Positions 21,716-24,194 of a DNA stretch of 32,449 nt are shown piece after piece. Positions within the stretch are counted from its first letter, which is position 1, and the number at the start of each line of letters is the position of its first letter. The notes under the pieces are model-generated. The model searched no databases, was not told the origin of the DNA, and saw nothing but the letters and a program-made list of their open reading frames with translations. The stretch comes from a virus. The translations under genes were made by a program, and so were the position numbers. The stretch is from positions 1 through 32,449 of the IMG/VR virus record IMGVR_UViG_3300042288_001076; one strand, 5' to 3'.

Positions 21716-21907
21716 TCAGAAACCTCCCAGGTTTCGGATAACGTTCGCCACAGTAGCGAACACCAACAGTGTACCAAACCAACCAGCAGCCCACAACCCG
21801 AGCCGCACATTAATTCTGTCAGAAATCCCCAACACTTCCCGCACCGTAGCCACCCCCAACATGATACATGGGGGCAGCCACAACAACAACCCGACCAGCC
21901 ACAACAT
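21716..21907 (-). CDS. two-TM membrane protein, 63 aa
   Basis: The ATG at 21907 overlaps the upstream stop (TGATG). Two hydrophobic helices: LWLVGLLLWLPPCIMLGVA (residues ~2-20) and GLWAAGWFGTLLVFATVANV (~37-57), joined by a polar loop (REVLGISDRINVR). A hairpin-type membrane protein; in this position it may be a superinfection-exclusion or membrane accessory of the VWA/MoxR pair. The loop contains palindrome variant 21813-21825. Confidence 0.6.
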   Translation of the reverse strand: MLWLVGLLLWLPPCIMLGVATVREVLGISDRINVRLGLWAAGWFGTLLVFATVANVIRNLGGF

Positions 21908-22788
21908 CAGAACACATCCTCCGAATCCACGACACCCTGATCGACCAATTGCGTCAGCACCCACTTGAGGGGGTCGCGGGTCATGTCGCGGTTACCGTCC
22001 AACGTGACAGCGGTACTGGCCCCGACGTATTCGGTCATGTGGGCGCCGTTGCGGTTCAGACCGTAATAGCCATACTCTGAGAAACCGCACTTGTTGCGGA
22101 AGAAAGAGTCTTGCTCACCAACCGACCACTGTAGACGCCTATTGTAGTCGCCATGACCCAAAGCAAACATGAGAGCGTCAACGTCGATAGGGTCGCCAGC
22201 AGTGTTCACCTTAGTCAAGATGGTGCCATACTTTTTGTGACGAATCTCGTCGCCCGTGACGGTCGATTCGACCCACACCTCCAACTGCAACCCCAGCAGA
22301 CAGTAAGCGTCCACAAGGGCGCACAGGACTGCGCCACGCTTAAGAATGTCCTTAGCCTCGTTGTCGAACGTCATCGACGCATCGACAAGCAAAGTGAACA
22401 CCTTGCCGTCCTTAGGTGCAGGGACGAAGATATCTTCGATCATGCACTCCAATTCGCCAGCAATATAGCGGTCGATATCAGGTTCAAAGCCTGTCATGTC
22501 GAATGCCCGTTCGGTGACGGTAGCCAACGCCTTACCCAACTGTTCACGCAACGGTTCCAGCGTTGCATCAACCTGGGGGCGCACATCATGCCAGCCGTGC
22601 AAAGCCAACTCGTAAGCGTCCTGCAACGATTCGGTCACATTATAGTGAGTGTTACCACGACGGTCAGACAACCCAGGGGTCTTGTTGTCGTGAGCGTACT
22701 TCGCAATTTCTGCCAAAGATTCAAACTGAATCACATGGTATTCTGCTTCGGCATTCTTGCCGATACCTTTGCCGTTCTTGACTTGCAT
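21907..22788 (-). CDS. VWA-like domain protein, partner of the MoxR ATPase, 293 aa
   Basis: After an N-terminal ~125-residue helical domain there is a VWA-like core: KVFTLLVDASMTF gives a DASMT variant of the DxSxS metal-ion motif at residues 136-140, followed by an amphipathic helix (AKDILKRGAVLCALVDAYCL) and strand (LQLEVWVESTV). The C-terminal third has Tyr/Gly-rich loops. VWA proteins next to MoxR/CbbQ-type AAA+ ATPases form cooperating chaperone pairs (RavA-ViaA, CbbQ-CbbO, CobS-CobT layouts). The gene follows the AAA+ gene and has its own promoter and RBS (AAGGGG). Confidence 0.65.
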   Translation of the reverse strand: MQVKNGKGIGKNAEAEYHVIQFESLAEIAKYAHDNKTPGLSDRRGNTHYNVTESLQDAYELALHGWHDVRPQVDATLEPLREQLGKALATVTERAFDMTGFEPDIDRYIAGELECMIEDIFVPAPKDGKVFTLLVDASMTFDNEAKDILKRGAVLCALVDAYCLLGLQLEVWVESTVTGDEIRHKKYGTILTKVNTAGDPIDVDALMFALGHGDYNRRLQWSVGEQDSFFRNKCGFSEYGYYGLNRNGAHMTEYVGASTAVTLDGNRDMTRDPLKWVLTQLVDQGVVDSEDVF

Positions 22789-22821
22789 TGTTAGCCCCTT
22801 TCAGGCTAGAGCGATGAGAAT

Positions 22822-22850
22822 AGTGTACACACTTCGGGGTGGGATGCCAA
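22822..22850 (-). promoter_or_regulatory. leftward promoter for the VWA-like gene
   Basis: Read leftward: -35 TTGGCA (22845-22850), 17-nt spacer, -10 TACACT (22822-22827), 34 nt before the ATG at 22788. The -35 lies inside the downstream arm of the terminator hairpin 22838-22879, and palindrome TATTTGACAAATA (22854-22866) is directly upstream. Good spacing and hexamers. Confidence 0.6.
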
Positions 22851-22879
22851 CATTATTTGACAAATATTGGCACCCCACC
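22838..22879 (-). terminator. leftward terminator after the MoxR gene, with operator in the loop
   Basis: 13-bp stem in the leftward RNA (GGTGGGGUGCCAA pairing with UUGGCAUCCCACC, one G-U pair), loop of 16 nt that contains the palindrome TATTTGACAAATA. It begins 11 nt after the stop at 22890. Confidence 0.65.
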
Positions 22880-22889
22880 ATCGGACAGG

Positions 22890-24194
22890 TCACAGAGGGT
22901 TGATCTTCGCCCACTGGTCGGCAGGAATCTTGTTGCCTAGCGTCATCATCAACGCCTTGTCGATATCACGGCCAGCCGCAACCATGCGGGCACCCGTCTG
23001 CGCCCCACGGGGCGTGACGAAGATGTTGAGACCGTGCGTTGCCACATTGGCCCGTGCGGTACGCCACACATCCAACCATGCCGATGCAGTAGTCTGCTCG
23101 TCGTCGGAGAAGAACCGACGCACCAAAGCATCCTCAAGTCCCTCGTCAATTTCCCACGGCAGGTACGAGAACCTGTCCAGCGTGGCAGCATCCAACTTGT
23201 TACGGCCAGCGAACTGCGACGTAGGGCCAGTGCCATAGGTGTTCGCACAAGCGACGAACACCAGATTGTTACCGAACGGAATTTTCTCACCGCACGGTGC
23301 TTCAAAGAAGCCGTTAGCCAGCACCGTGTTCAGCGTCGCCAGGATGCCAGCGTGCCCGTTGTCCATCTCGTCCAGACAGACAATCGCCCCGCTATCGGGG
23401 TTCTGTGAAGCGTGACGGATCATGTCCACCATGCGAGGCTCAAAGAACTCGCCATTAGCGGTCATGCCGCCCACAAGTCGGCTCTCTGGGGTGGTCGGCC
23501 CCAGCGAGATACCTGCCCACGGGTAGCCCAGCAAATCGGCAGCCTGCCCGACGCTGTGCGTCTTGCCCGTGCCAGGACTGCCAGGCAGGAACGTGTGGAT
23601 GCCAGCCTGAATGTTGAACAACAAGTCAGGGAACGCCTTGTGGAACAAGCCGTCGGACGACAGGGTGACAGTCGGCATCTTGACTTCGATGTGGGCCGTC
23701 ACCGTGCGAACCTCGTTCGTCGGCTGCACAATTTCTGGCGAATATTCGGCCAGAGCCGTGGCGATCTTGTCATCCATCACCACATCTAGGGCTTCGTTCA
23801 GTTCGCCCCTCATGGTGTCGTCCAGTTCGCCAGCGATACGGCGAACGATATCTTCGATGGTCATGCTCCCATCCTTGTTGGTCGGGGCCGTGGTCGGCCC
23901 ATCGGTCTTGTTGGTCGGCCCATCCTGGTCGGGCTGGTCGGCTTCGTTGACAGGGGCCGTGAAATCCTCGTCAGGGATGAACGGGGGCGGCACCTCGTTC
24001 GGCGTATTTCTGTCAGAAAGTTGGACAGTCTCGCCCACGGCAGGCCAATCACGGCCACGCATGGCAGTGAAGACAACATCCTTGTTGTAGTCGGGCAGCA
24101 GATGTGTGGGAACCCACGAACCGCTAGCCGTGAGCACCTCATACTTACCGATTGACGAGCAGCGAACTGCGATAGGGGTGATACGACGAGCCAT
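22890..24194 (-). CDS. MoxR/CobS-type AAA+ ATPase, 434 aa
   Basis: AAA+ motifs: Walker A GSPGTGKT (205-212), Walker B IVCLDEMD (271-278), sensor 1 ACANT (N318) and the arginine-finger segment LDAATLDRF (R341). The layout (GGM insert, HASQNPDSGAIVCLDEMD, DAATLDRF) is typical of MoxR/CobS/CbbQ ATPases. The N-terminal ~110 residues are a small beta domain followed by a Pro/Thr/Asp-rich linker. Residues 111-150 are a helical tether. It would remodel a target with the VWA-like protein encoded next. ATG 24194 has RBS GGAGG. Confidence 0.85.
   Translation of the reverse strand: MARRITPIAVRCSSIGKYEVLTASGSWVPTHLLPDYNKDVVFTAMRGRDWPAVGETVQLSDRNTPNEVPPPFIPDEDFTAPVNEADQPDQDGPTNKTDGPTTAPTNKDGSMTIEDIVRRIAGELDDTMRGELNEALDVVMDDKIATALAEYSPEIVQPTNEVRTVTAHIEVKMPTVTLSSDGLFHKAFPDLLFNIQAGIHTFLPGSPGTGKTHSVGQAADLLGYPWAGISLGPTTPESRLVGGMTANGEFFEPRMVDMIRHASQNPDSGAIVCLDEMDNGHAGILATLNTVLANGFFEAPCGEKIPFGNNLVFVACANTYGTGPTSQFAGRNKLDAATLDRFSYLPWEIDEGLEDALVRRFFSDDEQTTASAWLDVWRTARANVATHGLNIFVTPRGAQTGARMVAAGRDIDKALMMTLGNKIPADQWAKINPL

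Follow-up and report, generated by a model that had tools for sequence, protein, structure and literature searches.

Known MoxR/VWA machines and the viral locus

NorQ/NorD, which inserts iron into nitric oxide reductase, and CbbQ/CbbO, an activase of Rubisco, are the described machines closest to the gene pair analysed here. In NorQ/NorD, the MoxR ATPase and VWA protein are encoded side by side, and NorD carries a finger ahead of its VWA core. Passages of PMC13036017 describe this finger (NorD residues 403-448) as entering the NorQ pore, where it contacts the helix-2 inserts, and report that its deletion abolishes iron insertion while ATPase activity is kept. NorD further possesses an extra N-terminal domain and a working metal-ion-dependent adhesion site (MIDAS), mutants of which still co-purify with NorQ but leave the enzyme inactive, according to excerpts of PMC9976466. 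The pair under study lies in the IMG/VR virus record IMGVR_UViG_3300042288_001076, a stretch of 32,449 bases that was analysed in full, is called the window below, and may be a fragment. It consists of a MoxR-type AAA+ ATPase and a DUF7192 protein with a predicted VWA fold. We read it, with a probability of about 0.65, as a remodelling couple of the NorQD/CbbQO kind that works by a finger in the pore and that in most members would bind its target at a site other than a MIDAS.

Related arrangements are known from viruses. The CobS/CobT genes of cyanophages and haloarchaeal viruses encode a related ATPase adjoining a VWA protein, and adjacent or linked genes are described in parts of the reports on halovirus Hardycor1 (2021, PMC7911831) and Bacillus phage 0305phi8-36 (MoxR orf66 with orf63; 2007, PMC2147016). 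The partner in Hardycor1, in contrast to DUF7192, is a 711-aa MIDAS protein. MoxR-vWA ternary conflict systems share the MoxR and VWA core, and some have lost MIDAS aspartates, as stated in passages of PMC7159879. While MoxR/VWA machines and the viral CobST pair are already published, the new point is a finger-bearing VWA partner that mostly lacks the MIDAS. In one literature collection, no publication was found on DUF7192, on a phage MoxR/VWA pair of this type or on the pair of cluster L phages.

The first-pass annotation of the window had proposed a three-gene unit, and ORF (open reading frame) reading recovers all three genes where it had placed them:

22890..24194, minus strand: MoxR-type AAA+ ATPase gene, 434 aa (AAA_5, phrog_249, conserved motifs, model)
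21907..22788, minus strand: DUF7192 VWA-fold partner gene, 293 aa (PF23822, phrog_1909, model, fold matches)
21716..21907, minus strand: 63-aa protein, two hydrophobic segments, not conserved as part of the unit (ORF, neighbour comparison)

The ATPase and DUF7192 genes are near-obligate neighbours

Searching IMG/VR with a DUF7192 profile yields 57 loci, every one of which has a related AAA+ ATPase gene upstream in the same orientation; L001 and L007-L011, duplicates of the window's own kin, are excluded from these counts. The gap between the genes ranges from -264 to 923 bases and is mostly below 130 (48 measurable of 49 non-redundant loci), the negative values stemming partly from over-long ORF starts. 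Because the first IMG/VR scan rested on a peptide pattern from one motif, a second was made with the C-terminal half of DUF7192 only. It returned 50 loci with the ATPase directly upstream in 50/50, including 31 of 31 new contigs. Among named phage loci, the pair is present in seven of eight, three of these seven (L012-L014) having been reached from the ATPase side. Neither gene was found in 78 control viral segments; these had been selected with an unrelated DNA pattern of 17 bases, and one kin locus among them was removed. The pairing is not due to chance. In cluster L mycobacteriophages, one DUF7192 copy adjoins the ATPase and a second follows about 3 kb further on. Two copies are located at 2180-3085 and 5956-6819 in L006, and at 3893-4720 and 7801-8661 in L003; L081 and L082 likewise have two in one phage or genome, the second lying apart or in tandem.

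Eight further loci come from a scan of bacterial genomes (four Streptomyces, Actinomadura, Saccharopolyspora, Trebonia and a Planctomycetaceae metagenome-assembled genome), all with the ATPase directly upstream of DUF7192. The Streptomyces flanks encode a SelR protein, a Mur ligase, an AFG1-like ATPase and PhoX, and the Streptomyces copy is therefore not in an evident prophage. Housekeeping neighbours are seen wherever flanks are annotated around the pairs in actinomycete chromosomes (Streptomyces L077, L079 and L080; L075, L076 and L078). Chromosomal pairs are rare, occurring in 2/396 genomes of the phylum (the second actinobacterial match in this sample being L084) and in 1/150 of the genus, where the single case is the genome on which the sample was centred. 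No third gene is common to all chromosomal loci. Conserved neighbours of the phage loci were considered as a clue to the target and rejected, as the survey returned nothing beyond generic phage genes, for example DUF3846 and an exonuclease.

This distribution bears on two other explanations. The pair could be imagined as a chaperone that helps to assemble the virion or the replication complex of the phage itself, given the chaperone role cited for Acidianus two-tailed virus proteins in part of PMC7911831, the archaeal phage-tail assembly system listed in a passage of PMC7159879, and one Kayvirus record that labels the ATPase 'structural protein'. However, the pair occurs across widely differing virion types (podovirus-like contigs, Kayvirus, cluster L), also resides in chromosomes without phage genes nearby, and has no virion gene as a constant neighbour. 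A Kayvirus copy, moreover, has a putative promoter with a 12/12 match to the sigma-70 consensus just before the ATPase start. Promoters of this type are termed early in a section of PMC7698491; for the Kayvirus module we used the promoter sequence alone, the operon class being unreadable from the main text of that paper. We therefore consider a chaperone role unlikely.

Slightly less probable still is a conflict module, serving in defence against rival phages or in counter-defence and related to the MoxR-vWA conflict systems. The rare and scattered occurrence in chromosomes would suit it, as would a weak similarity to bpMoxR (PF20030) that stays below the cut-off, and such systems include vWA domains without one or both aspartates, as a passage of PMC7159879 states. 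Unlike these ternary systems, the phage pair comes without a third component, and no effector is kept beside the chromosomal pairs either. In PADLOC, neither protein of the pair has a match, whether taken from the window or from phages; a Streptomyces ATPase of the pair has two weak ones, to IetA.

The ATPase resembles NorQ and CbbQ

The following regions were assigned in the ATPase:

22893..23657, minus strand: AAA+ domain, about residues 180-434 (model confidence about 96)
23559..23582, minus strand: Walker A GSPGTGKT, residues 205-212 (G205 and K211 invariant; G208 and G210 near-invariant)
23439..23483, minus strand: helix-2 insert region, placed at about residues 238-252 by alignment and comparison with NorQ
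23862..24011, minus strand: low-confidence linker, residues 62-111 (confidence below 50 at 62-71 and 79-111)
24021..24170, minus strand: small lineage-specific N-terminal domain, residues 9-58 (confidence about 70-86)

The protein matches AAA_5 (PF07728, E 3e-13) and phrog_249 (E 2e-40). Residues G205, K211, D275, E276, N318, R341 and R396 are invariant across 41 aligned ATPase sequences. By the features known for the family, they are assigned to Walker A, Walker B, sensor 1, the arginine finger and sensor 2, and the window protein is an intact MoxR-type AAA+ ATPase. The overall confidence of the model (predicted local distance difference test, pLDDT, the measure also used in the list above) is 80.7. 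Compared with solved folds by VIA-align, the model is closest to CbbQ (AfCbbQ2, the top single match, Z 21.5) and NorQ (Z 18.6-21.3), followed by McrB (17.2) and the midasin Mdn1 (16.5), with dynein also behind; by sequence, no match to solved structures appears at 0.1. The predicted AAA+ domain thus has a NorQ/CbbQ-like fold, in line with the first-pass call of a MoxR ATPase, and the long linker claimed there has its counterpart in the low-confidence stretch. CbbQ/CbbO is likened to the pair by the ATPase half alone, and the phage pair has no Rubisco link. The N-terminal domain cannot be aligned in Staphylococcus and Listeria phage relatives.

The name of phrog_249, 'porphyrin biosynthesis', raises the question of whether the pair is a viral cobaltochelatase helper, made of CobS and a CobT-like protein, that recruits host CobN and raises the cobalamin supply. 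Recruitment of host CobN by viral CobST has been proposed in a part of PMC8651126, and CobS is among the nearest solved relatives of the ATPase profile, which itself includes two cyanophage CobS rows. Against this, the window ATPase does not match the CobS equivalog TIGR01650 at 1e-3; scored against that model, with its cut-off of 558.55 bits, a Staphylococcus phage ATPase reaches 24.4 bits, a planctomycete one 38.4 and cyanophage CobS 73.7. The DUF7192 profile does not match a cyanophage CobT in hhalign. CobT-like partners measure 711-745 aa, lie upstream of cobS in two loci and keep DWSGSM; in two cyanophage ATPase loci, such a protein stands upstream instead of any DUF7192. The helix-2 insert of DUF7192-linked ATPases is 3 residues shorter than that of two CobT-linked cyanophage CobS proteins, a small outgroup (n=2), as would be expected if docking differs between the two kinds of ATPase.

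CobN was found in four of the eight bacterial genomes with the pair and is absent from the other four, one of them metagenome-assembled, and no class II ribonucleotide reductase (RNR) scores above the cut-off in 28 phage records, which may be fragments. S. aureus is not known to synthesise cobalamin de novo, which we also count against a cobalamin function. Cobalamin genes of Listeria go up when a P100-like phage infects the cell, an effect for which the authors suggest a stress response in passages of PMC12282133. P100-like Listeria phages do carry the ATPase-DUF7192 pair, so the rise would fit a cobalamin role, although those passages make no mention of the phage pair. Cobaviruses, for their part, are named for a cobalamin-dependent RNR and not for CobS (PMC6775973). 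Judged from NCBIfam, CobN presence, class II RNR and hhalign, CobST membership was rejected as very improbable, and the 'porphyrin biosynthesis/CobS' label of the ATPase is poorly supported.

The partner has a predicted VWA fold with a conserved finger

The 293-aa protein matches DUF7192 (PF23822) with E 3e-38 and 132.1 bits, the curated cut-off being 27, as well as phrog_1909 (E 1e-35), which has no assigned function. Its AlphaFold2 model, built from a 42-sequence alignment, has a pLDDT of 90.5 and a predicted template modelling score of 0.85. When the model is searched against the PDB with Foldseek, only five matches appear at E<=1e-3, and all are the NorD VWA protein bound to NorQ. In VIA-align, NorD is matched with Z 10.8 and a root-mean-square deviation (rmsd) of 6.3 over 204 aligned residues; the MIDAS domains of Rea1 (Z 7.5) and MDN1 (7.0) come next, and general VWA and integrin domains reach 5-6. 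Among viral models, DUF7192 proteins rank first and phage CobT/VWA proteins second. Sequence comparison with solved structures gave two chance-level rows only, and the profile four rows at E 0.13 or worse. The first-pass annotation had named the lack of a predicted VWA fold as refuting its VWA partner; such a fold, of the NorD/midasin class, is predicted. NorD is the top fold match for DUF7192, and NorQ is among the top for the ATPase; both models match NorQ/NorD-type machines, and therefore each half has a counterpart in the same bacterial machines. From this, together with the near-obligate pairing, we infer that the two proteins interact. As a MoxR AAA+/VWA couple, the pair is well supported by prediction and pairing.

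Three elements of the partner are central to the comparison with NorD:

22417..22524, minus strand: predicted finger (strand-helix-strand), residues 89-124, from the secondary structure of the model
22441..22494, minus strand: fingertip, residues 99-116, with G100, D104 and G111-E-L-E-C-M116, the most conserved element
22369..22383, minus strand: DASMT, residues 136-140, MIDAS-like and lineage-specific (2/61 sequences)

In the model, strands 90-97 and 116-123 and a short helix at 105-109 form the finger just before the first VWA strand. Conservation in DUF7192 is strongest at residues 99-116, the tip of this beta-hairpin. As conservation had first been computed on a motif-selected set, it was rechecked on sets not so selected. 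The fingertip still ranks highest in ten sequences not found by the motif (2.80 bits vs 1.70-2.31), and a tip of the form G-x-P-E-[CH]-M is present in 28 of the 31 new contigs, the other three having no match to the tip expression. In 7 of these 28 contigs with a readable tip (within L178-L218), histidine stands in place of the conserved cysteine, which may hint at metal binding or redox activity at the fingertip.

The first MIDAS motif is largely lost from the family

The motif D-x-[ST]-x-[ST], the first of the MIDAS, is present in two of 61 non-redundant DUF7192 sequences, namely the window protein and L022; at its first position, N is found in 32 and D in six. The family has thus largely lost this motif, and the window lineage may be an exception. 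The DASMT motif emphasised in the first-pass annotation is present in the window, but the emphasis fails for the family because D-x-[ST]-x-[ST] is missing from 59 of the 61 relatives and copies.

With less than even probability, DASMT forms a working MIDAS in the window lineage, where a metal would mediate the action of the pair on its target, as in NorD. The motif is kept across some distance, L022 carrying DCSMT at 49% identity to the window protein. Its absence from the other 59 sequences speaks against this, as does the fact that only the first motif was located in the window, with no T and D ligand positions assigned.

Proposed mechanism of the pair

Our preferred reading remains a MoxR/VWA couple coupled by its finger. 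We postulate that the ATPase forms a hexameric ring on which DUF7192 would sit, its finger (tip G-x-x-x-D...G-E-[PL]-E-C-M) plugging the pore against the helix-2 inserts. ATP hydrolysis would then turn the finger together with the VWA body and pull on the bound target. Since most family members, unlike NorD, lack the metal-binding MIDAS motif, the grip on the target would probably come from a different face of the VWA body or from the N-terminal part of the ATPase, which is lineage-specific. By analogy with NorQD, DUF7192 may have retained the coupling to the motor and mostly lost the metal-dependent grip. As target, a protein complex of the host or the phage that has no relation to cobalamin is most likely.

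Several observations weigh against this interpretation or set the pair apart from NorQ/NorD. The NorD fit is moderate (rmsd 6.3, whole-chain TM about 0.36), and a shared fold does not prove function. DUF7192 is shorter than NorD, and no nitric oxide reductase link was seen in the comparison with NorQ/NorD. The finger is equated with that of NorD by position, secondary structure and literature rather than by residue-level superposition, and the members from Staphylococcus and Listeria phages retain only the glycines and the proline of GEPECM. The MIDAS census covers the first motif and not the T and D positions. Gordonia phage Syleon (L004) encodes DUF7192 at 1248-2093 with no ATPase detectable anywhere in the record; two related Gordonia phages carry both genes.

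A wider reading, less likely than not, is that the pair represents a distinct MoxR/VWA class whose VWA partner keeps the finger and has dropped the metal-dependent site. It would occur in phages of Actinobacteria, Firmicutes and Acidobacteria and in a few chromosomes and be used early to disable or pull apart a host complex, and its 'porphyrin biosynthesis' label would be wrong. Takeover, assembly and conflict are the candidate roles. With the proposed assignment, DUF7192 and the doubtful 'porphyrin biosynthesis/CobS' label, both found in the well-studied Kayviruses, Listeria phages and cluster L mycobacteriophages, become a specific, testable machine. A conserved finger that mostly comes without a MIDAS would separate motor coupling from target binding, a live point for MoxR/VWA machines.

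Downstream ORF, repeats and genome context

The 63-aa ORF encodes two hydrophobic segments, and its ATG shares one base with the stop codon of the VWA gene. Profile searches (Pfam-type, PHROG) gave no family match. A small ORF with two such segments lies within 900 bases downstream in 8/50 other non-redundant DUF7192 genes, with no clear sequence similarity, and in neither of the two nearest distinct relatives, L002 and L022. The two-segment protein described in the first-pass annotation is therefore real as an ORF and was rejected as a conserved third component of the unit. Its claim of own promoters and operators was likewise borne out in one half: promoter-like sites in the window are at chance level (4 found vs 2.6 +/- 1.5 expected from shuffles), and operator-like repeats are real. 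A quasi-palindrome of 15-17 bases around ATATTTGCCARAWAT is found repeatedly from 22.8 to 25.9 kb, and each of the two genes has a copy upstream:

22853..22869, no strand assigned: operator-like repeat upstream of the DUF7192 gene (repeat search vs shuffles)
24247..24263, no strand assigned: operator-like repeat upstream of the ATPase gene (repeat search vs shuffles)

Ten strand-wise matches with at most one mismatch were obtained, compared to 0 in each of six mononucleotide shuffles. The repeat is kept in close relatives and not in L022 or L002. Repeats of the ATATTTGCCARAWAT type start at 22853, 24247, 24474, 24650, 24838, 25191 and 25581, with a weaker one at 25922; they are clustered before small minus-strand genes in an operator- or stoperator-like manner.

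The wider gene context is that of a phage, with TerL and an SU10-type portal on the plus strand and a primase, a DnaB-like helicase, an exonuclease and a RusA nuclease on the minus strand. The primase, of the AEP-TOTE type (PF22548; 14147-15091, minus strand), has a PrimPol-like PADLOC match, and a lone tRNA-Leu(CAA) is encoded at 16747-16832 on the minus strand.

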